From contig NZ_OY759719.1 of assembly GCF_963662555.1 (NCBI RefSeq), positions 764,985-828,984 of the forward strand: a stretch of DNA of 64,000 nucleotides. Reading direction: 5' to 3'. Below the pieces are notes generated by a model that saw only the letters and a program-made list of their open reading frames with translations, was not told where the DNA came from and searched no databases. Source of the DNA: Thiomicrorhabdus sp. GTDB taxonomy: Bacteria; Pseudomonadota; Gammaproteobacteria; Thiomicrospirales; Thiomicrospiraceae. This document shows, in pieces, positions 1,052 to 54,911 of the stretch (its first letter is position 1; each line of letters begins with the position of its first letter). Both the position numbers and the translations under genes were made by a program.

Positions 1052-1452
1052 GCGTTTTCCCTGAAACTGGATTGAATGTTGTAGTGTAAATTATGTTGGT
1101 GGTTTATATCGGTTTTATGGGGTGTTTACCCTAAAAATCCAAGTTTTATTCATACTTAAATTAAAAACTCTCGTTATTATAAATGAAATCATTAAGTGTT
1201 TGGCTCAACAGGCCTAGATTCTCAGAAGGGCTAAGCCATTTTAAGTTAGCAATGACAACGTTAAATATTTTAAAAGATAAATATAAATATAAATTTACCA
1301 GGCCTGGTAAATTAGCTTAAATGTATCAAACTATGACTTTATTTCATGACAATGCCACACAATCATTAAAAGATAAAAAAGATTTTTTAAGTTAGATACC
1401 CAATATAAAAAATATAAGACAAATAACTCAAGATAAACAAGGAAACTTCATA
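1052..1452. other. Divergent intergenic region ftsY / M16 peptidase
   Basis: This 401-base AT-rich spacer must hold the promoters of ftsY (leftward) and of the M16 peptidase pair (rightward). No convincing -35/-10 pair stands out. The one notable element is the perfect palindrome at 1297-1308, extended by A/T-symmetric flanks. No ORF, tRNA or U-tailed hairpin was seen. Confidence 0.6.
1297..1308. repeat. ACCAGGCCTGGT palindrome, copy 1 (intergenic)
   Basis: Exact 12-bp palindrome between ftsY and the M16 genes. The flanking bases extend the dyad symmetry to about 22 bp. Confidence 0.9.
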
Positions 1453-2841
1453 ATGGCTACAAGAAGGTTTGCTATAAGCGTTGCCTCGGCAATATTACTT
1501 GCTGCGGTAAGTTTACCGAGTATGGCAAAAGTAACAGAATTTACCTTAGACAACCAAATGAAAGTGTTGGTTAAAGAAGACCATCGTGCACCTGTTGTGG
1601 TGCATCAAGTTTGGTATCGTGTGGGTTCTAATTATGAGCACAGCGGTAAAACGGGTATTTCTCATATGCTTGAGCACATGATGTTTAAAGGTACCAAAAA
1701 ACTTAAGCCAGGTGAGTTCTCTAAAATAGTTTCAAAAATGGGTGGTCAAGAAAATGCCTTTACCTCTACTGACTATACCGCCTATTACCAAGTGGTGGGT
1801 AAACAGCATTTAGGTGAAGTAATGAGCTTAGAAGCCGATCGTATGCGAAATATTGTGCTTACCGATAAAGAATTTTTGAAAGAGCGAGATGTGGTCACCG
1901 AAGAGCGTCGTTGGCGTACTGAAGATAAGCCAACAGGTAAATTATATGAGCAGTTTATGGCCACCGCGTTTATGAACAGTCCTGCTCATCATCCCGTTAT
2001 TGGTTGGATGCCAGACATTAGAAGCTGGACAGCGACGGATGCTCGTAATTGGTACAAGCGTTGGTATGCACCAAACAATGCAACATTAGTTGTGGTAGGC
2101 GATGTTAATCCGCAAGAGGTATATAAATTAGCCCAAAAATATTACGGAAAAATCAAACCAGAAAAAATGGTTCAACCGCCGCCGCAAACAGAGATAGAGC
2201 AAGAGGGGCCAAGACGAATTGTGCTAAAAGGGGCAACTAAAGCTCCAAGTATATTAATGGGCTTTCATGCTCCAACATTAGTTACCGCTAAAAATGCAGA
2301 ACAACGTAAAGAGGTGTTTGCTTTAGAGGTATTGAGTTCAATTTTAGATGGTGATGACTCTGCTCGTTTAACCAAAGACTTGGTGAGAAAACAGCAAGTG
2401 GTTGCTAGTGTGGGTGCTGGGTATGACGCAACAGACCGTTTGAAAACATTATTTATGTTTAGTGCAACACCGTCTGAAGGAGTTACGCCAGAACAGACAG
2501 AAAAAGCAATTTGGAAAGAAATTGAAAAACTACAAACGGAACCTGTTTCACAAGAAGAGTTAGACCGTGTACTGGCGCAAACGGAAGCTCAATATATTTA
2601 TCACCAAGACTCTATTCAGTCGCAAGCGATAGTGCTTGGTTCTTTGGTCAGTGTTGGTTTGCCAGCAGATACCTTAGATAAATGGGTAGATGAATTGCGT
2701 AAAGTTACCCCAAAACAATTACAAGCTGTAGCAAAAAAATACCTACAAAAAGATAAAGTGACGGTGGCTACTTTATTGCCAAACGGTAAAACCATACAAA
2801 GAAAAGCGGGTGCGGGCATGCATTTAGGAGATATACACTAA
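1453..2841 (+). CDS. Exported M16 zinc metallopeptidase (PqqL/insulinase family, active-site subunit)
   Basis: The 462-residue protein has an N-terminal signal peptide (about residues 1-25, ending SMA). It carries the inverted zinc motif HxxEH as HMLEH at residues 71-75, with a conserved downstream Glu region (VTEERRWR) as expected for the third zinc ligand. M16 peptidases of this length work as heterodimers or homodimers that enclose and degrade unfolded peptides, here in the periplasm. The start has AAGGAAAC eight bases upstream. Its stop overlaps the next ATG (TAATG), so the two M16 genes are translationally coupled and very likely form one complex. The natural substrate cannot be told from sequence. 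Confidence 0.92.
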   Translation: MATRRFAISVASAILLAAVSLPSMAKVTEFTLDNQMKVLVKEDHRAPVVVHQVWYRVGSNYEHSGKTGISHMLEHMMFKGTKKLKPGEFSKIVSKMGGQENAFTSTDYTAYYQVVGKQHLGEVMSLEADRMRNIVLTDKEFLKERDVVTEERRWRTEDKPTGKLYEQFMATAFMNSPAHHPVIGWMPDIRSWTATDARNWYKRWYAPNNATLVVVGDVNPQEVYKLAQKYYGKIKPEKMVQPPPQTEIEQEGPRRIVLKGATKAPSILMGFHAPTLVTAKNAEQRKEVFALEVLSSILDGDDSARLTKDLVRKQQVVASVGAGYDATDRLKTLFMFSATPSEGVTPEQTEKAIWKEIEKLQTEPVSQEELDRVLAQTEAQYIYHQDSIQSQAIVLGSLVSVGLPADTLDKWVDELRKVTPKQLQAVAKKYLQKDKVTVATLLPNGKTIQRKAGAGMHLGDIH

Positions 2842-4160
2842 TGAAAGTATTTATAACAAGACCAATTTACCAGGCCTGGTTGTTTATTGGCTTTTTGTTG
2901 GTAAGTGTATCGGCATTTGCTGGGGTACATATTGAGAGCTGGCACACCGATAATGGGGCTAAAGTCATGTATGTGCAGGCCAAACAGCTCCCTATGCTTG
3001 ATATTGAGATGACTTTTGATGCGGGCTCTGCAAGAGACGGCGATGTTTGGGGGCTTGCCTCAATGACATCTAATTTACTGGGTACAAGTACGTCTAAATT
3101 AAATGAAGAGCAGGTTTCTGAAACCTTTAACAACATTGGGGCACAAATTGGTTCTAATGTGAGTCGTGATAACGCTTCTGTTTCTTTGCGTACACTTACG
3201 CGACCAAAAATCATGAAAACGGCACTGGATAATTTTGCAAAATTAGTCAGTGATTCTCAGTTCAAACAAGCTATTTTTGAACGTGAGATGCAACGCCTAA
3301 AAATTGGTTTAAAACAAAATACGGTTAAGCCACAGGTCATGTCTAATGAAGCTTTATGGAAGGCGTTATATGGTAATCATCCCTATGCACATCCAGTTTC
3401 TGGCACGCTAACATCTGTGGATAAAATAACCCTAGATGAAATTAAGACGTTTTATAAAAAATACTATGTGGCTTCAAATGCGGTTATAGCAATTGTTGGT
3501 AATGTGGATAAAGCTCAAGCCAAAGCGATTGCTAATCAGCTGACTAAAAATTTACCAATAGGTTCTAAACCACCAGGCCTGGTAAATCCAACAAAAGAAC
3601 CTAAACAGCAAATTATTAAAATTAATTTTGATTCAACTCAAACCTACTACTCTCTTGCACAATTAGGTATAGAGCGTGGAAATCCTGATTATGTGCCTTT
3701 ATTTGTGGGTAATCATTTATTGGGTGGTGCTGGTTTTGGTTCGTTGTTAATGGACGAAGTACGTGAAAAGCGTGGATTAGTTTATAGCGTGTATAGCTAC
3801 TTTGCACCGCAAAAAGTCACGGGCCCTTTTATTATTGGGCTTTCTACCAAAAACGCCACCGCTAACCAGGCTGATAAGGTAGTAAGAGAAACTTTAGATG
3901 GCTTTCTAAAAGACTTTTCAGATAAAAAACTGCAAGCCATTAAAGATAACTTAATTGGTGGTTTTCCGTTAAGAGCGGATAACAACGGCAAAATTTTGGG
4001 CTACATTTCTATGATTGGTTTTTACGGTTTACCGTTAGATTATTTAGATGAGTTTCCAAAACAGATTGCTAAAGTAACCAAACAAGATATCTTACAGGCC
4101 TGGAAAAAACACATTCATCCTAAAAAGATGGTGGAAATTATGGTGGGTAAACCGCAATAA
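2841..4160 (+). CDS. Exported M16 peptidase-like protein lacking the zinc motif (partner subunit)
   Basis: This 439-residue protein belongs to the M16 family. The position equivalent to HxxEH in the upstream gene reads LASMTSNLL, so no zinc site is present. The C-terminal M16 half keeps the substrate-side motif DEVREKRGLVYSVYSYF, in which the Arg/Tyr residues are characteristic. This is the usual pattern for the non-catalytic subunit of a two-gene M16 complex. A signal peptide ends near residue 27 (AFA). It overlaps the upstream peptidase gene by one base. Two copies of the 12-bp palindrome lie inside it, one encoding YQAW in the signal peptide and one encoding PPGLV. Confidence 0.9.
   Translation: MKVFITRPIYQAWLFIGFLLVSVSAFAGVHIESWHTDNGAKVMYVQAKQLPMLDIEMTFDAGSARDGDVWGLASMTSNLLGTSTSKLNEEQVSETFNNIGAQIGSNVSRDNASVSLRTLTRPKIMKTALDNFAKLVSDSQFKQAIFEREMQRLKIGLKQNTVKPQVMSNEALWKALYGNHPYAHPVSGTLTSVDKITLDEIKTFYKKYYVASNAVIAIVGNVDKAQAKAIANQLTKNLPIGSKPPGLVNPTKEPKQQIIKINFDSTQTYYSLAQLGIERGNPDYVPLFVGNHLLGGAGFGSLLMDEVREKRGLVYSVYSYFAPQKVTGPFIIGLSTKNATANQADKVVRETLDGFLKDFSDKKLQAIKDNLIGGFPLRADNNGKILGYISMIGFYGLPLDYLDEFPKQIAKVTKQDILQAWKKHIHPKKMVEIMVGKPQ
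2869..2880. repeat. ACCAGGCCTGGT palindrome, copy 2 (in M16 partner gene)
   Basis: Exact copy read as Tyr-Gln-Ala-Trp within the signal-peptide coding region. Confidence 0.9.
3572..3583. repeat. ACCAGGCCTGGT palindrome, copy 3 (in M16 partner gene)
   Basis: Exact copy read in the Pro-Gly-Leu-Val frame, in what looks like the linker between the two M16 halves. Confidence 0.9.
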
Positions 4161-4231
4161 ATAGGTGATAAATTAGAAACAGGAAATGAATTTTTAAGTT
4201 TATTCAAAGGTATTAATGGCAGTTTTTAAGG

Positions 4232-4753: not shown

Positions 4754-4761
4754 AGAAAGAC

Positions 4762-4888: not shown

Positions 4889-4900
4889 ACCAGGCCTGGT
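4889..4900. repeat. ACCAGGCCTGGT palindrome, copy 4 (intergenic)
   Basis: Exact copy between two divergent genes, about 136 bases from the nearer start codon. Confidence 0.9.
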
Positions 4901-9309: not shown

Positions 9310-9386
9310 GCATTATTTTAAATACGTTTAAATCGAATTTTACAGGCCTGGTAGCCTTTTTGTTTTAATGTTCTAAGCTTTACCAT

Positions 9387-9851
9387 CTATCGTCGATTTA
9401 TGGTTTCTAATGTATAAGGTATTTGAATTTGTGTACCGTCTTTTTGATGAATCATTAAGGTGATTTGCCATTCCATTTTTTGATTTGTACAAAATGCCAA
9501 CATTGATGTACCTACAAAGCGATTAGAATCCATTTGTGTTAAATCAACCCGGTTATATCCCATATACATATTAATTCCAGAAATATCTAACTCCATTCTT
9601 TGAGCATCTAGGTTTTTTGTATCCACCTCTATTCCCAGAGGTCTAGCAATTGGAATAGGGTGCGGACTTATTTTTAGTGTCACTTTAGCTTCGCCCATTA
9701 CAGCGGTACAGCTGTTAGTATGTAAATCGCAATTTTTTGGGGTTTGCCATTGTGTGATATTGCTATCTTCAGATTTTGAACAGCCTTGTAATACCAGGCC
9801 TGTAAGAATAAGAGAAAGTAATATGGCTATATTTTGAGGTTTTATCATCAT
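9387..9851 (-). CDS. Small lipoprotein, YtkA/FixH-like fold possible
   Basis: The 154-residue protein has a lipoprotein signal peptide with lipobox LQGC and acylated Cys24. The mature part (about 130 residues) is predicted to be beta-rich, with conserved-looking segments KISPHPIPIARPLGIEVD and MYMGYNRVDL. That pattern recalls YtkA-like beta-sandwich proteins, but the match is by impression and no function is claimed. It ends 35 bases before the HPP gene reads in from upstream on the same strand, so both may be one transcript. A near-palindrome lies in the signal-peptide coding part. Confidence 0.7.
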   Translation of the reverse strand: MMIKPQNIAILLSLILTGLVLQGCSKSEDSNITQWQTPKNCDLHTNSCTAVMGEAKVTLKISPHPIPIARPLGIEVDTKNLDAQRMELDISGINMYMGYNRVDLTQMDSNRFVGTSMLAFCTNQKMEWQITLMIHQKDGTQIQIPYTLETINRR

Positions 9852-10888: not shown

Positions 10889-10900
10889 ACCAGGCCTGGT
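10889..10900. repeat. ACCAGGCCTGGT palindrome, copy 5 (intergenic)
   Basis: Exact copy in the divergent spacer between the HPP gene and modE, about 100 bases before the modE promoter. Confidence 0.9.
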
Positions 10901-13670: not shown

Positions 13671-14792
13671 ATGACGGAGTCAATAAAACAACCAATAAAA
13701 CCGCCAATGATAAAAGGCAATTTACAATTAGATTTAGGCGGGTTTGCCCTTGATAGCGGTAATTTTGAAATTCCACTACAAGGTGTGACGGTACTGTTTG
13801 GACGATCAGGCAGTGGTAAAAGCACCTTATTACGAGCCATTGCAGGTTTAGATAAACGAACTCGTGGGCAGTTAACGGTAGAAGAACAAATTTGGCAACA
13901 AGAGAGCAAATCCATGCCTGCCCAAAACCGTAATATTGGTTTTGTATTTCAAGATGCTGCTCTGTTCCCGCATTTAACGGTTCGCCAAAACTTAGAGTAC
14001 GGCATTAAACGTTTACCCAAAACAACCAGGCCTGCTGATTTTGACGATATTGTGCAGCGTGTGGGTATTAGCAAGTTATTAGATCGTAAAGTCACTTATC
14101 TTTCGGGTGGAGAGCGTCAACGTGTAGCTATCGCTCGCACCTTGTTAATGCGTCCTAAGTTACTCTGTATGGACGAACCTCTTTCGGCACTAGATTGGCG
14201 GGCCAAAGCTGAGTTACTTGCATTAATTGAAGAGGTGATAGAACAGTACAATTTACCTGTGTTGTATATCACTCATGCTCCTGCCGAAGTTGAACGTTTA
14301 GCTGATCGAGTGGTGTTTATGAAGGCAGGGCAGATTGAACACATGGAAACATTACAACAAGCCTTGGCTCGTCCCGATTCACCATTGTTTGATGAGCAAG
14401 GCGCGGTGTCTGTCTTAATGGGAACTCCTCAGCAAGTTGAAGATGGTTTGCAGTGTATTCAAATTAACCAAGATATTGACAAAAGTTGTGAGCAATCATT
14501 ATGGGTGGCTGAACACTTATTGGTTCAAAAACCTCAAGTCAGAGTGCGAATCTTAGCTAGAGATGTCAGTATCGGTTTAGCTGATCCACAGAATTTAAGC
14601 ATTATTAATCATCTTAAAGCTGAGGTGAGTGAGTTGATTCCGCAAGGCAAACATAAGGTTCTTGTGCGTTTATTGTTGGCTGATGGTCAACACCTGTTTG
14701 CCGAAATCACAAAGAGCTCAGCTAATCGTTTACAACTTTTACCAGGCCTGGTCGTTTTCGCTTTGATTAAAACGGTGGCAATGACAGAGTGA
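13671..14792 (+). CDS. modC: Molybdate ABC transporter ATP-binding protein ModC
   Basis: ModC powers molybdate import by ATP hydrolysis at the inner face of the membrane. The 373-residue protein has Walker A GRSGSGKST, the ABC signature LSGGERQRVAIART, Walker B LLCMDEPLSALD and the switch His in ITHAP. A C-terminal Mop-type regulatory domain (about residues 300-370) should bind molybdate and inhibit transport. It closes the modEABC block; modD converges on it with 12 bases between the stops. One 12-bp palindrome lies near its end and encodes PGLV. Confidence 0.95.
   Translation: MTESIKQPIKPPMIKGNLQLDLGGFALDSGNFEIPLQGVTVLFGRSGSGKSTLLRAIAGLDKRTRGQLTVEEQIWQQESKSMPAQNRNIGFVFQDAALFPHLTVRQNLEYGIKRLPKTTRPADFDDIVQRVGISKLLDRKVTYLSGGERQRVAIARTLLMRPKLLCMDEPLSALDWRAKAELLALIEEVIEQYNLPVLYITHAPAEVERLADRVVFMKAGQIEHMETLQQALARPDSPLFDEQGAVSVLMGTPQQVEDGLQCIQINQDIDKSCEQSLWVAEHLLVQKPQVRVRILARDVSIGLADPQNLSIINHLKAEVSELIPQGKHKVLVRLLLADGQHLFAEITKSSANRLQLLPGLVVFALIKTVAMTE
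14741..14752. repeat. ACCAGGCCTGGT palindrome, copy 6 (in modC)
   Basis: Exact copy read as Leu-Pro-Gly-Leu-Val in the C-terminal Mop domain of ModC. Confidence 0.9.
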
Positions 14793-19169: not shown

Positions 19170-19997
19170 TTATTTTTTCTGGCATTTTGGGCAAAAATAG
19201 CTGGCACGTTGATTAAGAATAATACGCTCAATTAGGGTGCCGCAAACGGTACAAGGTTTTCCAGCTTGGTCATAGACATTCAGTTTTTGAACAAAATAAC
19301 CGGGTTTTCCATCTGGAGACATAAAGTCTTTAAGTGTGGTGCCGCCTTGTTCAATGGCTGCTGAAAGTACTCGTTTTATATTGCTAACTAATAACTCACA
19401 TTGCTTTTTAGTCAGTTTACTAGCCATGGTTTGGGGGTGAATCTTACTCATAAATAGAGATTCATTAGCGTAAATATTACCAGCACCTACGGCAACTGCA
19501 CTGTTCATGATTAGGCTTTTAATGGCTACTTTGCGGTTGCGAGTTTTTTCATAAAAGTATTGGCCATTAAAATCATCTGTTAAAGGTTCGGGTGCTAATT
19601 TAGCCAGGAGCTTATGCTGTTCAACTGAACCAGCTGAAGCAGGGTGCCAAAGTACTGAACCAAAACGACGGGGATCATTTAAACGCACTAAATATCCGTT
19701 TTCTAAAATGATATCTACATGGTCATGTTTCAGGGCTGGGGTATTTTCGGGTAAAACTCGGAGGTTGCCAGACATGCCTAGATGAATAAGTAGGGTGCCT
19801 AACTCTGTTTTGAGTAATAAATACTTGCCTCTTCGATCTATAGATTGAATGACCAGGCCTGGTAATTTTTTAGTGAGGCTTAAATCAACTGGCCAGCGTA
19901 AGCTAGCATTACGCACTACAAAGGCTTTAATAGTTTGCTGATTGGCCTTTGGAGTAATGCCTTTTCGTGTGGTTTCTACTTCGGGTAATTCTGGCAT
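19170..19997 (-). CDS. mutM: Formamidopyrimidine-DNA glycosylase MutM (Fpg)
   Basis: MutM excises oxidised purines such as 8-oxoguanine and cuts the abasic site by beta/delta elimination. The 275-residue protein begins MPELPEVE, with catalytic Pro2 and Glu3. It has Lys58 in RRGKYL, GNIYANESLF, and a C-terminal zinc finger with Cys249, Cys252, Cys269 and Cys272. All active-site residues are present. The ATP pump gene lies downstream on the same strand, about 90 bases away. A 12-bp palindrome encodes LPGLV near the N terminus. Confidence 0.97.
   Translation of the reverse strand: MPELPEVETTRKGITPKANQQTIKAFVVRNASLRWPVDLSLTKKLPGLVIQSIDRRGKYLLLKTELGTLLIHLGMSGNLRVLPENTPALKHDHVDIILENGYLVRLNDPRRFGSVLWHPASAGSVEQHKLLAKLAPEPLTDDFNGQYFYEKTRNRKVAIKSLIMNSAVAVGAGNIYANESLFMSKIHPQTMASKLTKKQCELLVSNIKRVLSAAIEQGGTTLKDFMSPDGKPGYFVQKLNVYDQAGKPCTVCGTLIERIILNQRASYFCPKCQKK
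19852..19863. repeat. ACCAGGCCTGGT palindrome, copy 7 (in mutM)
   Basis: Exact copy read on the minus strand as Leu-Pro-Gly-Leu-Val (residues 45-49 of MutM). Confidence 0.9.
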
Positions 19998-27681: not shown

Positions 27682-28012
27682 TTTATTCTCTCTAAGTAAT
27701 TGGATAATAAGTTGTGAGTTCGGCTATGAATTTTAGAAAGGTTTTATGACAACTGGATTAATTGAAAATAGCATTTTGTTTAAAGAAAAATGACAGGAAT
27801 TAACCGTTTGAAGTGAAAATTTAGGTTATAAACATTATTTGGGAATAAATTATAAGTATCTATATTTAACAAATGAGTTAATCAACTTAATGACTGCTAT
27901 TTTATGTTTGGATTATTGTTACTCTTTTATTAAATAGGTTGATTTGCAATTTACCCTGTGCTTACAACATATAGGTTGATCTCTGGGTATGCCAGGCCTG
28001 GTAAATTGAGGA
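27682..28012. other. Intergenic region phoX-like / radC
   Basis: This 331-base AT-rich leader and promoter region serves the PhoX-like gene. Two TGTCAT elements on its coding strand, TTGTCATAAAA (27746-27752 core) and CTGTCATTTTT (27790-27796 core), resemble single Pho-box halves. The second repeat unit of each is poor (CCTTTCT, CTTTAAA). A near-copy of the 12-bp palindrome (GCCAGGCCTGGT) lies at 27991-28002, just beyond the radC stop. Confidence 0.45.
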
Positions 28013-28693: not shown

Positions 28694-28881
28694 AGCTTTA
28701 TATCACTTATTATGTGGAGTTTATTTAGGACTTTAATTTGGTTTTTGATACTATAAATTTCAAATTTATCAGGCCTGGTATCTTTAGGTTTTATCCCTTT
28801 GTTTTGGATAGAGCCTTAATCGTTTGGTTTTTATATTAAATTATATTTAAGTAATATTAAGTAATAGGGCGTATATAAGCA

Positions 28882-35886: not shown

Positions 35887-35891
35887 ATTTT

Positions 35892-35903
35892 ACCAGGCCT
35901 GGT
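35892..35903. repeat. ACCAGGCCTGGT palindrome, copy 8 (intergenic)
   Basis: Exact copy beginning five bases after the stop of the first FccB-like gene. Confidence 0.9.
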
Positions 35904-36041
35904 AAAGTTTACTTTATTCAAAATATAAAGAGGTTTTGCACGAATGAATAAAGGGTGAAAGCAGTGGTAATTGACTATTTTAAGACTAGAAAATCTTAAC
36001 TTGTTTTTTCTCATTCCTGACTCGTGTAGCAATGATCTTAT

Positions 36042-36077
36042 AAAGCTAAATTGTAAATAAACAATTTAGCTTTTTTT
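36042..36077 (+). terminator. Rho-independent terminator of FCSD-like module 1
   Basis: Perfect 13-bp stem AAAGCTAAATTGT/ACAATTTAGCTTT with a 6-base loop, followed by TTTT. It separates module 1 from module 2, so the two are likely transcribed independently. Confidence 0.85.
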
Positions 36078-36258
36078 GTTTTATGCATATGCATGCCAAT
36101 GTATGTATTCATTTCTACTAAATTAATTCTCTAAAAATAAGCTTTTGTACTTAAGACAAATGTCTATTAAGACATATGCCCTCTGTTTTGTATGGTTTTA
36201 TTCTGTACTATCAAGTAAGAATTTTACATATTTAATAAATACACAACTAGGATTGGCT

Positions 36259-37290
36259 ATGAAAATAACAAAAGCCCCATTTGTACTGTCCGGAATATCT
36301 ATAGCGATATTATTAGCCTCTTGCGGCGGAGGAGGCAGTAGCAGTACAGATACAACTACAGCAACTACGGCAAGTACAACAAGTGTGGTAAGTGGCACGG
36401 TTCCAGGAACTCTAATTGAAGCTTTTTGTGCAGACGGAACTTACTATCATGTAAATTCAACGGATGATGGCACAACCGAGCATCCGTTCTCAATTTCATT
36501 ACCTAATAATGTCGATTGTCGATTAGTTATGACGACGAATGAAGATGATCCGGCAACAAGAGTGATTACTTCTATACAAATAAATTCAGGGCTCGTAACA
36601 AGTGGCCTGATTAACATGTCAGAAGATTTTGAATTAGGCTATGTTCCGCTTTCATTAACGCGTACAGGAGTGGATGCTGATGGTGATGGCGTTGCAGATG
36701 CTCCTCTAGCCTTGCCTTTAACATTACCTGATGGTGTTGTGGTTAGAGATGTAAGTTATGACTCTTTGGATAAAGACGGTGACGATATACCAGATGTCTA
36801 TAACGATGAAGATGATGACGGTGAGATAAATTCGGAAGACAGCGATTACGTTAGAGTTGGCGATACAGATGGCGATGGTATTGATGATATTTATGATCTA
36901 GATGATGATAATGACGGCCTAAATGATGAAGCTGATTCTGACGACGATAATGACGGTACGCCTGATAGCGAAGATTCTGACCATGACGATGATAATGAAA
37001 CGACTTCAACAACGGTTTACACCCCGGTTTCTGAATATACCTTAACAACGGGTCGCTTATTAGCATCTCAATGTGCACAGTGTCATGGCACAAATGGTAG
37101 TTCAACCAATAGTTGGGACAGCATTGCTGGTGAAAGTGCTAGTGAACTTATTGAAGAGATGAAAGAGATTCAAGCGGGTGAAGAAGATCTTATTATGCAA
37201 GCACAGGCACATGGTTATAGCGATGCCGAAATAGAAGCTTTAGCAGCATGGTTAGCAACTCAGGCTAACTCAGATAATGACGATGATTAA
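36259..37290 (+). CDS. Lipoprotein monoheme cytochrome c with Asp-rich TSP3-like Ca-binding region (FccA-like, module 2)
   Basis: The 343-residue protein starts at the ATG with AGGATTGGCT upstream and has the lipobox LLASC (Cys22), followed by a Gly/Ser/Thr-rich linker. A beta-rich domain (about 45-138) precedes an Asp-rich region (about 139-250) with repeats such as DADGDGVAD, DKDGDDIPD, DTDGDGIDD and DDDNDGLND, the DxDxDGxxD pattern of thrombospondin type-3 calcium loops. The C-terminal cytochrome domain has CAQCH (272-276) inside LLASQCAQCHGT, the same stretch as module 1. Electron transfer to or from the next flavoprotein is inferred from context. The combination is unusual for an FccA subunit. 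Confidence 0.82.
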   Translation: MKITKAPFVLSGISIAILLASCGGGGSSSTDTTTATTASTTSVVSGTVPGTLIEAFCADGTYYHVNSTDDGTTEHPFSISLPNNVDCRLVMTTNEDDPATRVITSIQINSGLVTSGLINMSEDFELGYVPLSLTRTGVDADGDGVADAPLALPLTLPDGVVVRDVSYDSLDKDGDDIPDVYNDEDDDGEINSEDSDYVRVGDTDGDGIDDIYDLDDDNDGLNDEADSDDDNDGTPDSEDSDHDDDNETTSTTVYTPVSEYTLTTGRLLASQCAQCHGTNGSSTNSWDSIAGESASELIEEMKEIQAGEEDLIMQAQAHGYSDAEIEALAAWLATQANSDNDDD

Positions 37291-37301
37291 GGAAAGTGAA
37301 T

Positions 37302-38609
37302 ATGAATAATCAATTATCACGAAGAAATTTATTAAAATCACTTGGTCTTGGTATTGCTGCAACCGCTTTACCAGGCCTGGTAAAAGCTGCAGATACTTTG
37401 CCTCACATTGTTGTTGTCGGAGGTGGTTTTGCTGGAGCAACCGTTGCAAAATATCTAAAAATGTGGGGTGGTTTAAGTGTACAAGTTACCGTTATTGAAC
37501 CAAACTCAACTTATGTATCACCTATCTTAAGTAACTTAGTACTGAATGGTCAAAAGACCACAGATGACTTAAGTTTTAACTATATTAATCATAGCCAGAA
37601 ATATGCTGTAAATATGCTACATGATACGGTGACTGCGGTTAATAACACCGAAAAGTCTGTTACCTTATTAAGCGGTGGCAGTATTAGTTATGATAAGTTA
37701 ATACTTGCTCCTGGAATTGATTTTGACTCTGTACCAGGCCATGACTTTACGAAAGTACCTCACGCTTGGAAAGCAGGAGAGCAAACTAATCTTTTAAAAG
37801 CACAAATTGATGCGATGAACGATGGTGATAGTTTTATTATGACTGTTCCAAAGGCTCCTTATCGCTGTCCTCCAGGGCCTTATGAACGTGCTTGTGTCGT
37901 AGCGGATTATCTCAAAAACACCAAAGGGTTTACGGGTTGTACCGTAAAAGTACTAGATGCAAACGCTGCAATTACGGTTGAAGCCGATACCTTTGGAACA
38001 ATGTTTACAAGTTATGGTGTGGAATATATTCATAGTGCAACAGTATTAAGCGTTGATTCAGATAATAAATCGGTGACTTATACGGTTGGTTCAGATGCCA
38101 CACCAATTACTGATAGTGCCACTACGTTAAATGTGATACCAAACCAGAAAGCGGGTCCTATCGTATTTACGGCGGGTCTTAATGAGGGAAATTGGGCACC
38201 AATTAATCCTTTAACGTATGAATCAACTAAGCTAAACGGATCATCTGAAGCAGTAGGTTTAGATATTCATATTATTGGTGATTCACAAGGAACAGGCTTG
38301 CCAAAAGCAGGACATATTGGAAATTCAGAAGCAAAAATTTGTGCTGATGCAGTGCTTCGATCTTTAAAAGGGTTGGATCCGGATCCAGCACCAAAAACCA
38401 ATTCAGCTTGTTATAGCCCAGTATCTGCAACAACGGCTTCATGGTTAACTGCGGTATATGAATACAATTCAGATACAAAGCAAATGCAGCCTATTGATAT
38501 CGTTCCTAATAGCGTTTTAGATAAGTATGCTTCAGGAGCTCCAAGTGCAGAAAATTATCGTTCGATGTTTAATTGGTCAGGTAATTTATTTGCAGATACT
38601 TTCTCTTAA
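37302..38609 (+). CDS. FCSD/SoxF-like flavoprotein (FccB, module 2)
   Basis: The 435-residue paralogue of the module-1 flavoprotein has a Tat-type signal SRRNLLKSLGLG, the FAD motif IVVVGGGFAGATVAKYL and YRCPPGPYERAC. The FCSD redox cysteines correspond to Cys189 and Cys370. The frame opens at a GTG (37296), but the ATG at 37302 with AAGGAAAG upstream is better. It starts 11 bases after the cytochrome stop. A 12-bp palindrome lies within its signal-peptide region (LPGLV). Both copies keep all key residues, so neither looks decayed; different sulfide affinity or electron acceptors is speculation. Confidence 0.86.
   Translation: MNNQLSRRNLLKSLGLGIAATALPGLVKAADTLPHIVVVGGGFAGATVAKYLKMWGGLSVQVTVIEPNSTYVSPILSNLVLNGQKTTDDLSFNYINHSQKYAVNMLHDTVTAVNNTEKSVTLLSGGSISYDKLILAPGIDFDSVPGHDFTKVPHAWKAGEQTNLLKAQIDAMNDGDSFIMTVPKAPYRCPPGPYERACVVADYLKNTKGFTGCTVKVLDANAAITVEADTFGTMFTSYGVEYIHSATVLSVDSDNKSVTYTVGSDATPITDSATTLNVIPNQKAGPIVFTAGLNEGNWAPINPLTYESTKLNGSSEAVGLDIHIIGDSQGTGLPKAGHIGNSEAKICADAVLRSLKGLDPDPAPKTNSACYSPVSATTASWLTAVYEYNSDTKQMQPIDIVPNSVLDKYASGAPSAENYRSMFNWSGNLFADTFS
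37370..37381. repeat. ACCAGGCCTGGT palindrome, copy 9 (in second FccB-like gene)
   Basis: Exact copy read as Leu-Pro-Gly-Leu-Val at residues 23-27, at the end of the Tat signal peptide. Confidence 0.9.
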
Positions 38610-39306: not shown

Positions 39307-40518
39307 ATGAAAATACTAATTGGGGTTACAGGCGGTATTGCCGCATATAAATCTTTGGAACTGACTCGGCTTTTTATTAAAGCTGGGCATGAGGTTCAAG
39401 TAGTGATGACGGCGGGTGCAAAAGAGTTTATTCAACCGCTCTCTTTTCAAGCGTTGTCAGGCAATCCTGTGCGTGACAGTTTATTTGATGTAAACCAAGA
39501 AGCAGGCATGGGGCATATTGAACTTGCCCGTTGGGCAGATGTCATTGTGGTTGCACCAACCTCTGCAGAAACCCTAGCCAAATTAAGAATGGGCCGTGCA
39601 GATGATTTGTTAACCACTTTGATTTTAGCAACCGATAAACCTATTGTTTTAGCCCCAGCAATGAATCGTTTAATGTGGAGCAATCAAGCGACTCAAGAAA
39701 ACGTAACGGTTTTAAAACAACGTGGCTGGACGTTATTACAACCAGGTTCTGGTGAGCAAGCCTGTGGTGAAGTGGGTGAGGGCCGAATGCCTGAACCACA
39801 ACAAATATTTGACGCCGTGATTGAGGTTGAACAACAGCAAAAAGAAAATTACCAGGCCTGGTCAGAGTTAAAAACATTTTGGCAGGGTAAATCATTACTA
39901 ATTAGTGCTGGGCCAACCTATGAAAACATCGATCCAGTGCGTTTTATAGGCAATAGAAGTTCCGGAAAAATGGGTTTTGCACTTGCTCAAGTGGCAGCTT
40001 TGGCTGGTGCTAATGTCACCTTAATTGCTGGGCCTGTACAATTAACAACACCTGATAAAGTAAAGCGTATTAATGTGCGTTCAGCACTAGATATGTTTGA
40101 GGCTGTCCAAAAAGAGTACGCTCAAAACAGCTATTTTATAAGTGCGGCAGCGGTTGCAGATTTTAGAGTGGCAGAGATGGCTGAGCAAAAAATCAAAAAA
40201 CAGGCAGATAATGAAAATATGACGCTTGAATTGATTAAAAACCCTGACATAGTTGCCTGGGTAGCTCAACAAAAAGATAAACCTTTTGTAGTAGGGTTTG
40301 CCGCAGAAACTCAAAATGTCATTGAGTACGCTAAAGACAAATTAAAGCGTAAAAATTTAGACATGATTTGTGCTAATCAGGTGGGTGAAAATCAAGGTTT
40401 TGAATGTGACGATAATTCGCTAACTGTTATTACCCATTCTCAGCAACAAACATTTCCAAGTTCATCTAAGTATCAACAGGCAATCGCAGTGTTAAACACG
40501 ATTTCTGAAAATAATTAA
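39307..40518 (+). CDS. coaBC: Bifunctional phosphopantothenoylcysteine decarboxylase / phosphopantothenate-cysteine ligase
   Basis: CoaBC performs two steps of CoA synthesis: CTP-dependent addition of cysteine to 4'-phosphopantothenate (CoaB) and FMN-dependent decarboxylation (CoaC). The 403-residue protein has the CoaC half first, with GVTGGIAAYKSLELTR, the catalytic His in MGHIELARWAD, PAMNRLMW, and the Cys of the clamp GEQACGEVGEGRM. The CoaB half begins near GPTYENIDPVRFIGNRSSGKMG. dut, often its neighbour, is about 9 kb away here. A 12-bp palindrome encodes YQAW in the interdomain linker. Confidence 0.97.
   Translation: MKILIGVTGGIAAYKSLELTRLFIKAGHEVQVVMTAGAKEFIQPLSFQALSGNPVRDSLFDVNQEAGMGHIELARWADVIVVAPTSAETLAKLRMGRADDLLTTLILATDKPIVLAPAMNRLMWSNQATQENVTVLKQRGWTLLQPGSGEQACGEVGEGRMPEPQQIFDAVIEVEQQQKENYQAWSELKTFWQGKSLLISAGPTYENIDPVRFIGNRSSGKMGFALAQVAALAGANVTLIAGPVQLTTPDKVKRINVRSALDMFEAVQKEYAQNSYFISAAAVADFRVAEMAEQKIKKQADNENMTLELIKNPDIVAWVAQQKDKPFVVGFAAETQNVIEYAKDKLKRKNLDMICANQVGENQGFECDDNSLTVITHSQQQTFPSSSKYQQAIAVLNTISENN
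39851..39862. repeat. ACCAGGCCTGGT palindrome, copy 10 (in coaBC)
   Basis: Exact copy read as Tyr-Gln-Ala-Trp in the linker between the CoaC and CoaB halves. Confidence 0.9.
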
Positions 40519-45657: not shown

Positions 45658-46998
45658 CTAAGGTTTTGCTTGCATAGAGAGTTTGACAATAATTGGCGAA
45701 AGTACCAATAAGGCAATTAAGTTTGGTATCGCCATAAGGGCATTCAGTACATCTGCAAGAATTAATACGGTATTAAAGTAGTCAGATAACGCAGCACCAG
45801 CAAAAACCGCAATTACCCATAACACTCGGTAACCAGTAATCACTTTTGTTCCTGCAATATATTCGGCACAACGTTCACCATAATAACTCCAACCAAGTAA
45901 GGTAGTAAAAGCAAAAATAGCCAAGCCTACAGCAACCACAATGGCACCAAAATCAGAATCTAAACCTACATTAAATGCCATTGCGGTTAAGGGTGAACCT
46001 GTTTCGCCACTTTGCCAGACACCAGTCACCATAATCACCAAAGCGGTCATGGTGCAGATAATGATGGTATCGATAAAGGTACCGAGCATAGCAATGTGAC
46101 CTTGTTTTACAGGGTCTTTGGTTTTTGCAGCGGCATGTGCAATAGGAGCTGTTCCCAAACCTGCTTCATTAGAAAATACCCCACGGGCAACTCCAAACTG
46201 AATGGCTAAAATAATACTTGCTCCAGCAAAACCACCTGCTGCTGCACTACCAGTAAAAGCACTTTGTACTATAGTGCTGATTGCTCCTGGTAGAGCATCA
46301 GCATGCATAATTAATATATAAACAGCAAAAAGAATATAAAGCAAAGCCATAATTGGCACCAATGCTGTGGCTGTTTTAGCAATACGTTGAATGCCTCCAA
46401 ACAAGACCAGGCCTACTAAAACCATAAGAACCAGGCCTGTTATTTGATTGTTAATATGAAATGCCGTCTCCATGGCTCCAGCAACAGCATTGGCTTGTAC
46501 CATGTTTCCAATACCGAAAGCGGCAATAGTACCAAACAGAGCAAACGCAAAACCTAGCGGTTTCCCTTTTTCACCCATACCATTTTTAATGTAGTACATT
46601 GGGCCACCAACATGGCGACCATCTTCATCAATTTCACGATATTTAACCGCTAGCACCGCTTCACTGTATTTGGTGGCCATACCAACTATTGCCGTCACCC
46701 ACATCCAAAAAATCGCACCTGGCCCACCAATAAATAAGGCTGCGGCAACACCTGCAATGTTACCTGTACCCACTGTGGCCGCCATGGCAGTCATTAGGGC
46801 ACTAAATGGACTAATATCACCGTCCTCTTTTGATTTGCGGCTTTTCCACAGTAAGCTAAAAGCGTAAAAAAGGTGACGAAGTGGCAAAAACTTTAAACGA
46901 ATGGTTAAAAATATCCCCGTACCTAATAACAGTACTAGCATAGCTGGCCCCCAGGCCAAGCTGCTCGCGGTAGAAAGAATGCTGTTGATGTTTTCCAT
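45658..46998 (-). CDS. AGCS-family sodium:alanine/glycine symporter
   Basis: The 446-residue protein has about eleven membrane helices and the AGCS signatures TAMAATVGTGNIAGVAAALFIGGPGAIFWMW and ARGVFSNEAGLGTAPIAHAAAKT. These transporters import alanine or glycine with Na+ across the inner membrane. The Gly-rich substrate-binding stretches are complete. Two near-copies of the CAGGCCTG core lie within the coding region around 46407-46440. No glycine riboswitch-like leader was found in the 150 bases upstream. Confidence 0.94.
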   Translation of the reverse strand: MENINSILSTASSLAWGPAMLVLLLGTGIFLTIRLKFLPLRHLFYAFSLLWKSRKSKEDGDISPFSALMTAMAATVGTGNIAGVAAALFIGGPGAIFWMWVTAIVGMATKYSEAVLAVKYREIDEDGRHVGGPMYYIKNGMGEKGKPLGFAFALFGTIAAFGIGNMVQANAVAGAMETAFHINNQITGLVLMVLVGLVLFGGIQRIAKTATALVPIMALLYILFAVYILIMHADALPGAISTIVQSAFTGSAAAGGFAGASIILAIQFGVARGVFSNEAGLGTAPIAHAAAKTKDPVKQGHIAMLGTFIDTIIICTMTALVIMVTGVWQSGETGSPLTAMAFNVGLDSDFGAIVVAVGLAIFAFTTLLGWSYYGERCAEYIAGTKVITGYRVLWVIAVFAGAALSDYFNTVLILADVLNALMAIPNLIALLVLSPIIVKLSMQAKP

Positions 46999-47150: not shown

Positions 47151-48497
47151 TTAAACACTAACTTCTTTAAGTCTAAAGTTCCACCAGGCCGCAAAAATAG
47201 CCAATAAGCTAAGAAGTAAAATGACAAACTGAATAGAAACAGTATCGGCTAAGATTCCAACTAAACCACCTGTAAGCATGGCGATACCAATTACCGTGTT
47301 GCTTAACGCTACATAAGTGGCTCGTGTTTTTTCATTGGCAAGGTCAACTAGGTAAATTTTTCGACCAAGTCGAACACCGCCATGAAAAACGGTTACCGCA
47401 AAGAAGAATAAAGCGTGAGTAAGAGGATGTGTTAACCAATCACTATTAAGCTCAACTAAACTAAAAAGAGTAATGCCAATAAGACCTGTACCTAAAGAGG
47501 CTAGTGCCATAACTACACGGCTTGAGCGGTCACCAAGTTTACCCCAAAGTGGGGCACTGACCATACTAGCAACACCACTACTTATAATGAGCATGCCTAA
47601 ACCTGTCAGTTGTTGAGCACTGTATTGTTGGGCTAATAAAATATAAAAGGGTGGTACTAAGGCACTGCTTAATAGAAGAATGCGACCAATAACGTAATGC
47701 CTGAATGGTTTATCTGTTTTAAGCAATACAAAGCTTTTTATGGCAGTTTGTATCGCATTGCCACCACCTTCAGTGGCTCCGTCATGCTCTTCAATGGCAC
47801 TAAAAAAGAATAAACTTATAAACCATAATATTCCACCTAGTAAAAGCAGAAAGGCAAGTAACTCAATGGGAGGTGTAGCATTAAAAAATTCAATATATAT
47901 ACCAACGGCTAGGGTGGCTATGCCTGCAAGTCCTGCACTTATTCCCATTAATACACCACGTTTGCCTTTTGAAACCGTTTTGCCTAAAACATCTTTCGCG
48001 GATACTGAGCATAAGCCTCTCGCTAAACTAAAAATTACCAAAGCAATCAGTAAAGCCCAACCAGCAATAGCCCCGCTAAAAGAGATTGCCGTGACCGACA
48101 TTAACAAAAGTGCAAGTCCAGACAGCCCCGCACCCAACAGCCAAACCCCTTTTCGTTTTGGACGATTGCGAACAGCGGCGGCTACAAATAGCTGCGGTAA
48201 AAGTACCCCAGATTCACGAATAGGAACTAAAAACCCCACCATGGCAGAGGGAGCTCCTAAAGCTCCCATTAACCAAGGTAATATGAGTTTTGCACTGGCG
48301 AGTTCGTCGGCAACTTTGCCAAGAAAGTTGGCAATTAAATAGGCAAAAAAGTTTTTTGGCTGATGTTTGCAGGCCTGCTCGGGTATCTCCTTACAAACAC
48401 GAGAATCTTCATCACCAGTGATTAGCTCATACGCTTTAGTAACCACGGGTGTTGAATGATTATGTTCAAATTTCTGGTTTGAGTCATTTGAACTCAT
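47151..48497 (-). CDS. Major facilitator superfamily transporter
   Basis: The 448-residue protein has about twelve membrane helices. After a hydrophilic N-terminal segment of 50 residues come LLPQLFVAAAVRNRPKRKGVW and GKLGDRSSR, which resemble MFS loop motif A. The substrate is not evident. The open frame extends to 48554, but ATG at 48497, four bases after the stop of the hemolysin III-like gene and preceded by AGGGA, is the more likely start and makes a tight two-gene operon. A palindromic GCAGGCCTGC lies in its 5' part. Confidence 0.82.
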   Translation of the reverse strand: MSSNDSNQKFEHNHSTPVVTKAYELITGDEDSRVCKEIPEQACKHQPKNFFAYLIANFLGKVADELASAKLILPWLMGALGAPSAMVGFLVPIRESGVLLPQLFVAAAVRNRPKRKGVWLLGAGLSGLALLLMSVTAISFSGAIAGWALLIALVIFSLARGLCSVSAKDVLGKTVSKGKRGVLMGISAGLAGIATLAVGIYIEFFNATPPIELLAFLLLLGGILWFISLFFFSAIEEHDGATEGGGNAIQTAIKSFVLLKTDKPFRHYVIGRILLLSSALVPPFYILLAQQYSAQQLTGLGMLIISSGVASMVSAPLWGKLGDRSSRVVMALASLGTGLIGITLFSLVELNSDWLTHPLTHALFFFAVTVFHGGVRLGRKIYLVDLANEKTRATYVALSNTVIGIAMLTGGLVGILADTVSIQFVILLLSLLAIFAAWWNFRLKEVSV

Positions 48498-50974: not shown

Positions 50975-51209
50975 AAGTTATCCTCTTAATATTTTTATTT
51001 AGTACGCTCAATAGCGTATATGTATAGTACGTATTGCTTGATTCACTGTCAATTTATAAGAAAGGTTTAACTTGGTTTGCTTTGATATATTTAAATTCAA
51101 TAGAGCATGACTCTCTTTGGGATATAGGTTTCTTGTACTTTCGATTTTAAAATGCTAGAAAAAAAACATTAACTAGGGCATAGTTGTGCAAAATAATGAC
51201 TTTATTTTT

Positions 51210-51221
51210 ACCAGGCCTGGT
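51210..51221. repeat. ACCAGGCCTGGT palindrome, copy 11 (intergenic)
   Basis: Exact copy, flanked by symmetric T/A runs, 45 bases upstream of the zntB-like start. Confidence 0.9.
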
Positions 51222-51265
51222 AAAAAGTTATTAAGTTAATACAGTTGCTAATTAAGGATTTGAGC

Positions 51266-52234
51266 ATGTCAGAAGGTTTGATTCATGGCTTGTTGTTGGA
51301 TGGCCAAGGTGGAGCAAAGTCTCTAAGCTGGTCAGAAATTAAAAACTGGAACCCCTCTAAAGGAGAACTATGGTTACACATGGATTACAGTGTGTACCAT
51401 GTTAAAGAGTGGCTTTTTCATGAGAGTCATTTAGATATTTCAGTAGCAGAAACCTTGCTGAGCAATGAGTCTCGTCCCAGATTTAGCATGCTCGATCCAG
51501 GGGTTTTGATGGCCTGGCGAGGTGTGAACCTCAATCCAACAGCTGATCCAGAAGACATGGTGGCAATTCGATTATGGCGAGAAGAAGGGCGGCTTATTTC
51601 TACTTTAAGACGCGATTTAATGGCTGTTAATGAAGTGGTGCATGCTTTAGAGAGAGGGCGAGGGCCCGAAACTATTGGTGAATTGTTGATTGAAATTGCA
51701 GACAAAATGGTCTGGAAAATTGGTGATGTAGTGAATGACTTTGATGATCATATGTCAGACCTAGAAGGTAAAGTCATTGAAGAAGGAAGGATGGCCTTAA
51801 GACTAGAATTAAGTGCAATCCGTAGGCAGATTATTTATTTACGACGTTATATAGGGCCGCAAAAAGAAGCGTTAATGCGTTTTTCTATTGAAAAATTGCC
51901 TTGGTTAAGTCAAAACGATCGTATCTTGTTGCGTGAAGTGGTTGATAGGATTACTCGAACCTTAGAAGAGCTTGAGATGTTAAGAGAGCGTGCAGCAGTA
52001 TCGCAAGAAGAGTTGCAAAATCGCATATCTGAAGAGTTAAATAGCCGAATGTATGTGCTATCAGTGATTACCGCTATCTTTTTGCCATTAGGATTTTTAA
52101 CAGGCCTGTTAGGAATTAACGTTGGCGGAATCCCTGGTTCGGATAATCCCGAAGCTTTTCGCTATTTTGTGATTGGTTTAGTCGTGTTAATTATTTCTCA
52201 ACTGGCGCTATTCAAATGGCGAAAATGGTTTTAA
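51266..52234 (+). CDS. zntB: CorA-family divalent metal transporter, ZntB-like
   Basis: The 322-residue protein has a large cytoplasmic N-terminal domain and two C-terminal membrane helices. The CorA-type loop motif reads GINVGGIPG rather than the GMN of Mg2+ CorA, which is typical of the zinc transporter ZntB. The long central helices (QIIYLRRYIGPQKEALMRF) form the pentameric funnel. The frame opens at a TTG (51245), but ATG at 51266 with AAGGA upstream and MSEGLIHGLLLDG is preferred. The direction of zinc transport in the family is debated. Confidence 0.9.
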   Translation: MSEGLIHGLLLDGQGGAKSLSWSEIKNWNPSKGELWLHMDYSVYHVKEWLFHESHLDISVAETLLSNESRPRFSMLDPGVLMAWRGVNLNPTADPEDMVAIRLWREEGRLISTLRRDLMAVNEVVHALERGRGPETIGELLIEIADKMVWKIGDVVNDFDDHMSDLEGKVIEEGRMALRLELSAIRRQIIYLRRYIGPQKEALMRFSIEKLPWLSQNDRILLREVVDRITRTLEELEMLRERAAVSQEELQNRISEELNSRMYVLSVITAIFLPLGFLTGLLGINVGGIPGSDNPEAFRYFVIGLVVLIISQLALFKWRKWF

Positions 52235-52311
52235 CCGCCGTTTTGGTTAAAACCATTTAAAGCTGTTATTGAGTTACCAGGCCTGCTAATCCTTTTGGTC
52301 CTTTTTCTAGG

Positions 52312-53382: not shown

Positions 53383-53544
53383 TTGGTCTCTCCAAGTTAG
53401 AGTAGACATGGCAGAATAATAAGGTTCTGTTGCGTCAATTGATTTAAAGCAAGGCTTTATAAATAAGAGTTTAAGCTCACGAAATTTTGATTTTAATCTG
53501 TATTTATTAAAACGCGAGCTTTTTTAAATATTGGATGGGGATTT

Positions 53545-54843
53545 TTAAATTAAACTGCTTTCAATTGATTTTATTAAGCCATTGGTTAAGCTTTCTAGTT
53601 GTGTTTGAGGAATATTATAAGCAGGCATGGTATAGATAAGTTTGCCAAAAGGTCTTATCCAAACGCCGTTTTCTATAGCGGCAGCTTGAATGTCTGCTCC
53701 TAAATCATTTCTTTCTAATTCAATGACACCAATTGCACCCAGAACTCGCACATCTTTTACGCCCTCTAGCTTTTTTAGTGGTAATAGAGTTTCATTAAAA
53801 TGTGTCTCAATACGTTGAATATTATCCTGCCAAGGCGAGGCCATTAATACATCAATATTGGCAATCGCCGCTCGGCAAGCAAGAGGGTTGGCCATGTAGG
53901 TTGGGCCGTGTGCCAATATACCTGGTTGGCCTTGACTAATAGTTTCACTGATTTTACTAGTGGCTAAGGTCGCCGCTAAAGTGATATGTCCGCCTGTTAA
54001 TGTTTTACCTAAAGTTAGAATATCTGGTGAAATATCAGCCCATTCACAGGCAAACAGTTTGCCAGTACGGCCAAACCCAGTGGCAATTTCATCGGCAATC
54101 AGTAACACATCAAATTCATCGCACAATTGTCTAACCTGTTTCAAATAGTCAGGGCGGTAAAAACGCATACCACCAGCTCCTTGTACAATCGGCTCAATCG
54201 TTACTGCGGCGATTTCATTATGATGTTCTGCAAGAATGGCTTTGAACTGGGCGATGTCTTGATTGTCTGATTCAATCTCAAACCCCATTTGCGGAGCAGG
54301 TGCAAAGAAGTGTTTAGGCAGTAATTCAGAAAATAGACTATGCATGCCATTAACAGGGTCGCAAATGGCCATAGTGGCAAAGGTATCACCGTGATAACCA
54401 TTTTTAACAGTGAGTAATTTGTTTTTACCAGGCCTGGTTAAACTAATCCAATATTGCATGGCCATTTTAATGGCTACTTCCATGGCGACTGAACCAGAAT
54501 CAACAAAAAATACTTTTTCCAGGCCTGGGGGTGATAAATCGACTAAACGTTTGGCAAGTTCTATCGCAGGTTCATGTGTAAGACCGCCAAACATGATATG
54601 TGGCATGGTATCTATTTGCTCATGCATCGCTTGTTGAATTTTTGGATGATTATAACCATGTAAAGCCGCCCACCAGGATGACATACCATCAACCACCTCA
54701 CGATCATCTGCAAGTGTAATGATTGATCCTTGAGTCTTTTTCACACCAATCGCAGCAATGGGGTTAGGTAATTTGGCATAAGGGTGCCAAATGTGCTCTT
54801 GGTCGTATTGTAATCGTGCATTCCAATCGTTAAATGAATTCAT
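53545..54843 (-). CDS. bioA: Adenosylmethionine-8-amino-7-oxononanoate aminotransferase
   Basis: BioA makes 7,8-diaminopelargonic acid in biotin synthesis, using S-adenosylmethionine as amino donor and PLP as cofactor. The 432-residue protein has HIWHPYAK at the N terminus, GMSSWWAALHGYNHP, the PLP-site pattern LLIADEIATGFGRTG and the Schiff-base Lys in LTLGKTLTGG. The other biotin genes are not in the window. It carries one exact 12-bp palindrome (TRPGK) and a near-copy. An M42-like gene lies downstream on the same strand, and truC lies upstream. Confidence 0.97.
   Translation of the reverse strand: MNSFNDWNARLQYDQEHIWHPYAKLPNPIAAIGVKKTQGSIITLADDREVVDGMSSWWAALHGYNHPKIQQAMHEQIDTMPHIMFGGLTHEPAIELAKRLVDLSPPGLEKVFFVDSGSVAMEVAIKMAMQYWISLTRPGKNKLLTVKNGYHGDTFATMAICDPVNGMHSLFSELLPKHFFAPAPQMGFEIESDNQDIAQFKAILAEHHNEIAAVTIEPIVQGAGGMRFYRPDYLKQVRQLCDEFDVLLIADEIATGFGRTGKLFACEWADISPDILTLGKTLTGGHITLAATLATSKISETISQGQPGILAHGPTYMANPLACRAAIANIDVLMASPWQDNIQRIETHFNETLLPLKKLEGVKDVRVLGAIGVIELERNDLGADIQAAAIENGVWIRPFGKLIYTMPAYNIPQTQLESLTNGLIKSIESSLI
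54427..54438. repeat. ACCAGGCCTGGT palindrome, copy 12 (in bioA)
   Basis: Exact copy read on the minus strand in the Thr-Arg-Pro-Gly frame, the third possible frame. Confidence 0.9.
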
Positions 54844-54899
54844 ATATTGCTTACTTAGTTGTTCACTTTTAATTATTAAATAGATATTTAGGCTATCTT

Positions 54900-54911
54900 A
54901 CCAGGCCTGGT
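54900..54911. repeat. ACCAGGCCTGGT palindrome, copy 13 (intergenic)
   Basis: Exact copy three bases beyond the truC stop codon, in the 71-base spacer before bioA. Confidence 0.9.

Follow-up and report, generated by a model that had tools for sequence, protein, structure and literature searches.

A repeated palindrome in the window and its home genome

The stretch of DNA analysed here (the window, 64,000 nucleotides) covers positions 764985-828984 of the single 2,696,250-base contig of a Thiomicrorhabdus genome, a member of the family Thiomicrospiraceae, and a dispersed 12-letter palindrome, ACCAGGCCTGGT, lies scattered within and between its open reading frames (ORFs). A reading of the window made from its letters (the sequence-only reading) had reported 13 exact copies, and each was recovered at the start given for it. 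Comparison with ORF coordinates confirmed that six lie between ORFs and seven within them, the latter in all three frames. About a dozen further sites had been said to keep the central letters of the word, and the core CAGGCCTG was indeed found 25 times in the window, 12 of them besides the exact copies. With up to two mismatches allowed, ACCAGGCCTGGT gave 25 matches, against a mean of 1.17 and a largest value of 5 in 100 shuffles.

The excess extends to the whole genome: 488 exact copies were counted, and the reversed word used as a control did not occur. In 481 kb, 96 exact copies were counted against 0.01 expected from dinucleotides. A Markov control of maximal order predicted 12.1 copies for the 13 in the window, because the 11-mers from which it is built belong to the motif itself. 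The surroundings of the word were analysed in a 464-kb sample consisting of the window and twenty 20-kb stretches of the home genome, with 89 exact copies and 168 CAGGCCTG cores. One-mismatch copies numbered only 45, of which 36 differed in the outer two letters. The motif is longer than first described, with a pooled consensus of about AAATTTACCAGGCCTGGTAAATTT: when both sides were pooled, the first three letters outward were T in 78, 79 and 62% and the following three were A in 57, 54 and 47%, respectively. The flanks vary independently from site to site: of 96 sites, 35 have TT adjoining the word on both sides, 48 have it on one and 13 on neither.

Position of the sites in the genome

With ORFs of at least 80 amino acids taken as rough gene calls, 50 of the 89 exact copies in the sample fell outside ORFs and 39 inside, which corresponds to 687 per Mb between genes and 100 per Mb in genes, a roughly 7-fold difference. 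The coding copies were distributed over the three frames as 8, 10 and 21, with LPGLV as the commonest reading (15/39), and the earlier view that the constraint acts on DNA and not on protein is supported. Among the 48 intergenic copies that could be placed (of 50), 24 had a tandem, 16 a convergent and 8 a divergent setting; an excess of convergent settings is suggested but not significant (hand-calculated chi-square about 4.1, 2 degrees of freedom).

Over twenty 20-kb pieces the mean count was 3.8 and the variance 3.1, without clustering, and in 21 pieces there was no trend with distance from either skew pole (Spearman p 0.50 and 0.54), the poles being estimated from coarse GC skew. These data bear on the possibility that a dimeric protein for chromosome organisation or nucleoid occlusion (SlmA-, Noc- or MatP-like) binds the word and that selection holds the density of its sites; a nucleoid or segregation site had also been considered in the sequence-only reading. 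A long palindrome is the type of sequence that dimeric DNA-binding proteins read, and both the even spread and the mostly intergenic location by density would suit such a protein. We nevertheless consider it unlikely. The missing origin-terminus trend leaves the nucleoid or segregation analogy less supported, SlmA and Noc sites are far fewer than the copies of this word, and within one family the word may be near-absent (as in genome G003, described below), palindromic in differing words, or asymmetric.

Distribution and dialects in Thiomicrospiraceae

The exact word was present in 84-718 copies in 27 of 62 Thiomicrospiraceae genomes, and its reversed control was absent from all 62. The 32 genomes of the window's genus, its own included, comprise ten with 84-718 copies, four with 16-38 and 18 with 0-6. 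All nine genomes of g21 (181-688 copies), seven of the eleven of g18 (93-515, with none in the other four) and the single genome of g22 (289) carry the word in number; in g17, g19 and g20, nine genomes together, the range is 0-3. No more than one exact copy was found in any of 15 genomes from other families of the class. An 18-letter form was matched in 37 stretches of the genome collection, 33 of them in Hydrogenovibrio halophilus, Thiomicrospira sp. WB1 and two Thiomicrorhabdus records; the other four lie in unrelated records, about the number expected by chance (hand estimate).

A low count of the main word often means that a different dialect is present. A palindromic dialect, ACCGGCCGGT, is abundant in G023, with 1025 copies (control 1); none of the other 61 genomes has more than 15 (controls 0-19). 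An asymmetric dialect, ATCTRCCAGGYTGGG, has 288, 289 and 339 copies with strands summed in G046, G047 and G052, respectively, and at most one copy in each of the other 59 family genomes (control 0); among the matches listed, its Y position was always C in G046 and T in G047 and G052. G053, the genome closest to these three on the tree described below, has neither ATCTRCCAGGYTGGG nor the 12-mer. A second asymmetric dialect, AACAGGCCGGGT, was found in G021, where 100 kb contain 19 copies against 0.01 expected. In samples of 80-120 kb, G005 has 51 CAGGCCTG cores with AACAGG as the commonest half (38/102) and ACCAGG in 22, and G067 has mixed halves, ACCAGG (27) and AGCAGG (26).

Overall, the dialects retain GGCC or AGG and vary in flanks and symmetry. 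A-rich letters beside the core were found in G000, G023, G047, G052 and G046, and the word of the G046/G047/G052 group has an AAAA tract on one side. The strict dyad symmetry stressed by the sequence-only reading holds for the main form; the system can do without it, as shown by the asymmetric versions in two related lineages. When 118-119 kb each of G003, G024 and G020 were examined, not one 12-mer reached five copies in four of six pieces. Their strongest 10-mers were weak, and those of G024 (CAAGGCTTGG, 8 against 0.32 expected) and G020 (CAGCAGGCCG, 7 against 0.23) could be faint dialects. As a separate observation, CAGGATGACA occurs 13 times in 39 kb of samples from G045 (L103 and L147) and is perhaps a local repeat.

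Overrepresented GC-rich palindromes with alternates in related species are also known from cyanobacteria as HIP1 (highly iterated palindrome) and the alternate HIPs, according to the sections of PMC4390886 that deal with them, and Elhai proposed that HIP1 is made by a methyltransferase together with mismatch repair. This analogy had been raised from the window, and 16 of the 27 high-copy genomes (at least 84 copies) match PF00145 and/or PF01555. A HIP-like origin is nonetheless quite unlikely in our judgement. HIPs pair with a matching methyltransferase, whereas the window's genome matches neither PF00145 nor PF01555, the two families searched (PF02086, HsdM-type and others lay outside the search), which leaves the analogy less supported; PF00145 is likewise unmatched in all nine g21 genomes, and of the 27 high-copy genomes 11 are without a match to either family. 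A methyltransferase site would also be hard to reconcile with asymmetric dialects and a preferred span of about 20 bp, and the density of about 180 per Mb contrasts with 1000-2000 per Mb for HIPs in the same part of PMC4390886. The most matches among the 62 genomes were found in G042 (g17), with nine to PF00145, some of them fragments, and five to PF01555.

A Dcm/Vsr origin was considered separately, as CCAGG and CCTGG are two Dcm sites, and was rejected: PF00145 is unmatched in the window's genome, and in neither G023 nor G005 does the main word contain a Dcm site.

Gain, loss and conservation of sites

A midpoint-rooted tree of three proteins was constructed for 38 genomes, G021 and G056 having been dropped from a set of 40 for insufficient data. 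It places G003 beside the carriers G000, G016, G062, G015 and G009, and the G046/G047/G052 group among carriers. G003 has one exact copy genome-wide, no CAGGCCTG core in 119 kb and two in another 66 kb. Given its place beside carriers, this near-absence reads as loss, and its seven two-mismatch copies, against 2.2 expected, are possibly relics. The sequence-only reading had held that loss of most sites in close relatives without replacement would speak against it; such a loss was found in G003 and not across the family.

The origin of sites was examined in 31 gene families of at least four members near ftsZ in 40 genomes (the regions are not a dcw cluster and few of their genes are near-universal). 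In these families 73 core copies fell at 37 aligned positions, of which 18 were occupied in a single genome and 19 were shared, three of the shared ones spanning genera. A site-less relative could be aligned without gaps at 32 of the 37 positions and not at the other five, and at 19 of the 32 it was one or two mismatches from the core. Sites thus arise through substitution rather than insertion.

This substitution in aligned genes counts against a transcription terminator, a repetitive extragenic palindromic (REP)-like element or another mobile repeat family, explanations to which the common intergenic copies and some close inverted pairs in the G046/G047/G052 group might otherwise point. The main form is loopless, 39 of the 89 exact copies lie in ORFs, and close pairs among asymmetric sites amount to 2/16 in G047, 2/16 in G052, 1/10 in G046 and 0/22 in G021, and we hold explanations of this type to be very unlikely.

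Conservation of sites between relatives was examined for the window, as one region only, in four carrier relatives (G062, G016, G009 and G015; 73.6-78.2% identical). In these, 29 of 40 aligned cores were intact. The background was 8-18% for other 8-mers matched in G+C, and of the 8-mers 14 bp to either side 4 of 78 were intact; individual sites are listed in Table 1. Dialects were also compared at corresponding places: in all seven flank alignments (four places in G046, two of the alignments representing one place) the word of G047 and G052 stood opposite that of G046. Such a switch at orthologous spots is what a changed word preference would be predicted to produce.

Table 1. Exact copies of the palindrome and further core sites in the window, with gene context and state in relatives (the four carrier relatives are G062, G016, G009 and G015)
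Feature	Position	Context and state in relatives
Exact palindrome	1297..1308	Intergenic
Exact palindrome	2869..2880	M16 peptidase ORF 2841-4160; core kept in G062, G016, G009; altered in G015, G003
Exact palindrome	3572..3583	M16 peptidase ORF 2841-4160; core (3574) kept in four carrier relatives; altered in G003
Exact palindrome	4889..4900	Divergent intergenic
Exact palindrome	10889..10900	Divergent intergenic; kept in G062, G015; others unaligned
Exact palindrome	14741..14752	ABC-transporter ATPase ORF 13671-14792; kept in G062; others unaligned
Exact palindrome	19852..19863	Formamidopyrimidine-DNA glycosylase ORF 19170-19997 (minus); core (19854) kept in four carrier relatives
Exact palindrome	35892..35903	Intergenic, directly past stop of ORF 34579-35886; core kept in G062, not G015
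Exact palindrome	37370..37381	Flavocytochrome c sulfide dehydrogenase-like ORF 37296-38609; kept in G062, G015, G009, not G016
Exact palindrome	39851..39862	CoaBC (Dfp) ORF 39307-40518; kept in four carrier relatives (core 39853); gone in G003
Exact palindrome	51210..51221	Intergenic, upstream of CorA-like ORF 51245-52234
Exact palindrome	54427..54438	Class-III aminotransferase ORF 53545-54843 (minus)
Exact palindrome	54900..54911	Intergenic, upstream of class-III aminotransferase ORF
CAGGCCTG core	4095..4102	Degenerate flanks; core also in G062
CAGGCCTG core (TACAGGCCTGGT)	9343..9350	G062 has full palindrome
CAGGCCTG core (ACCAGGCCTGTA)	9795..9802	
CAGGCCTG core (ACCAGGCCTGCT)	14027..14034	G062 has full palindrome
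CAGGCCTG core	27993..28000	Adjoins RadC-like ORF 28013-28693
CAGGCCTG core	28770..28777	Opposite side of RadC-like ORF 28013-28693
CAGGCCTG core (ACCAGGCCTGTT)	46432..46439	Na/alanine symporter ORF; kept in four carrier relatives; altered in G003; near copy 24 bp upstream (46406)
CAGGCCTG core	48370..48377	
CAGGCCTG core	52101..52108	Within palindrome AACAGGCCTGTT, built from the half commonest in G005
CAGGCCTG core (ACCAGGCCTGCT)	52278..52285	
CAGGCCTG core	54520..54527	In class-III aminotransferase ORF
CAGGCCTG core	55566..55573	Degenerate flanks

Two side observations concern the arrangement of the window. Pairs of copies 24 bp apart occur at 46406/46430 and at 37840/37864 of G000:C1, a spacing also seen in some of the inverted pairs that the asymmetric dialect forms in G047 and G052. 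At 34579-38609, a cytochrome c-like ORF stands between two flavoproteins resembling flavocytochrome c sulfide dehydrogenase.

Interpretation as a candidate uptake sequence

The palindrome is a real, family-wide and evolving DNA signal. According to passages of PMC7811141, uptake signal sequences (USS) and DNA uptake sequences (DUS) evolve by point mutation, are scarce in coding, rRNA and newly acquired DNA, and can accumulate by molecular drive with no other function necessary; the portion of PMC3630211 on dialects describes DUS variants that track phylogeny around a fixed core. The hallmarks of overrepresentation, dialects with a shared core, origin by point mutation and scarcity in coding DNA are all found here, and together they make a USS/DUS-like pattern. 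By this comparison the signal appears to behave most like an uptake sequence and is a candidate member of that kind, with a palindromic main form; among the analogies offered by the sequence-only reading, DUS/USS fares best. We put the probability at roughly two in three that the palindrome is an uptake-signal-like sequence of Thiomicrospiraceae, accumulated through biased uptake and recombination on the DUS/USS principle.

In such a system, the uptake machinery leading from a type IV pilus to ComEC would have a surface receptor that favours the word, and fragments bearing the word would enter the cell and recombine into the chromosome more often than others. A chance substitution that made or improved a word could then spread between cells, and words would build up where they do least harm, mainly in intergenic DNA and at tolerant codons. 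Once the uptake bias was lost the word would decay, and drift in receptor preference is proposed as the reason why relatives carry dialects. The symmetric form suggests that the receptor may bind as a two-fold dimer or from either end.

Machinery for DNA uptake is present in the family. ComEC was matched in 56 of the 62 family genomes, and prepilin N-termini were found in all 21 genomes tested. Since both also occur in genomes without the word, the uptake model is permitted by them and not singled out. The idea that the motif disappeared because uptake was lost was tried and rejected, with ComEC present in G003, G024, G020, G046 and G047. The pilus locus was compared in 17 word-bearing genomes and three without the word (G003, G024 and G020), and no gene cluster was common to all the former and absent from the latter, nor did a clear receptor emerge. 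Cluster c13, upstream of the pilin genes (for example L136:4334-4813), was present in 8 of 17 word-bearing and none of three wordless genomes, numbers too few to tell; it encodes a cysteine-rich protein of about 160 amino acids (9-10 Cys), without a Pfam match in G000. In 14 of the 20 genomes a PilR/PilS-like pair of response regulator and sensor kinase adjoins the pilin genes; this pair is missing from G046, G047 and G052 (L151-L153), G045, G070 and G071.

Several results weigh against an uptake sequence. Besides its presence in word-less genomes, ComEC was unmatched in the carrier G006 (84 copies, 82% complete). The receptor domain ComP_DUS exceeded its cut-off in none of the 62 genomes, in a search whose sensitivity is unproven, as 0/14 control genomes matched either; one match below threshold came from G020, which has two copies of the word. 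The pilins of the one locus compared in the 20 genomes are mostly acidic, and no published natural transformation in Thiomicrospiraceae was found in the literature searched. One shared position near ftsZ includes G020 and G064, which do not have the word in number; with this case and the three cross-genus positions, some of the sharing must reflect protein constraint or coincidence. G003 keeps none of four aligned cores, no fewer than an 8% background predicts. Acquired DNA shows no clear shortage of the word: window DNA unaligned to the carrier relatives, a class that includes broken synteny, has 11 cores in 24.6 kb, compared with 14 in 39.5 kb of aligned DNA, and the plasmid-like second contig of G019 (L217, 96.8 kb) has two exact copies in 20 kb where about 5.7 would be expected from the genome mean. 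Finally, uptake sequences as published are not palindromes in the account given in part of PMC1939737, and a USS density of 0.58-1.08 per kb, from the excerpted text of PMC7811141, is higher than the density here.

Apart from its word count, L217 carries replication-initiator-like, ParA/ParB-like and large TraN-like ORFs, as judged by eye from their translations, and is described as plasmid-like on that account. As for prior reports, the literature matches listed, thin on subscription journals, contained no mention of the word or of uptake sequences in Thiomicrospiraceae.

Comparison with known systems

The DUS of Neisseriaceae, whose receptor is ComP, resemble the present signal as short words with hundreds of genic and intergenic copies and dialects that keep a core. 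The present signal differs in that most carriers have a palindrome, with a GGCC or AGG core, A/T-rich flanks and no ComP_DUS match over the cut-off. With the USS of Pasteurellaceae, for which ComN/PpdA is the proposed receptor, it shares a core with A/T-rich flanks, scarcity in coding DNA, evolution by point mutation, dialects and some inverted pairs. The sequence is unrelated to that of USS and has fewer copies per Mb; the A/T tracts of USS are one-sided in the relevant part of PMC12616744, whereas the main form here has a two-sided preference, single sites being often one-sided.

Chi-type signals are short, asymmetric and strand-biased. RecBCD/AddAB reads Chi in one orientation of the strand, and a palindrome is without orientation. 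A Chi-like word, or a defence self-marker, would protect the cell's own DNA or stimulate its recombination inside the cell, and a self-marker could likewise persist and differ between species. The density here is also near that of Chi in Escherichia coli (1008 copies in about 4.64 Mb, as quoted in a section of PMC1939737). The present word is, in contrast, longer than such signals, palindromic and denser between genes, and its A/T-rich flanks would fit double-stranded recognition; a role of this kind strikes us as improbable.

Significance for Thiomicrospiraceae

Neisseriaceae and Pasteurellaceae are, in the part of PMC12616744 that treats the question, the sole families known to discriminate between self and foreign DNA in the initial step of transformation. 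We lean, by a small degree, towards Thiomicrospiraceae being a third family with independently evolved self-specific uptake, in which the signal would shift between palindromic and asymmetric forms and dialects would change together at orthologous sites. If this is true, the family, sulfur oxidisers of vents and sediments, would make the question of why such signals evolve testable beyond animal mucosa. Its palindromic and asymmetric dialects, together with lineages of gain and loss, would then form a comparative set in which a receptor could be sought by co-variation, and nature might offer a comparison of symmetric with asymmetric recognition by a single evolving receptor.

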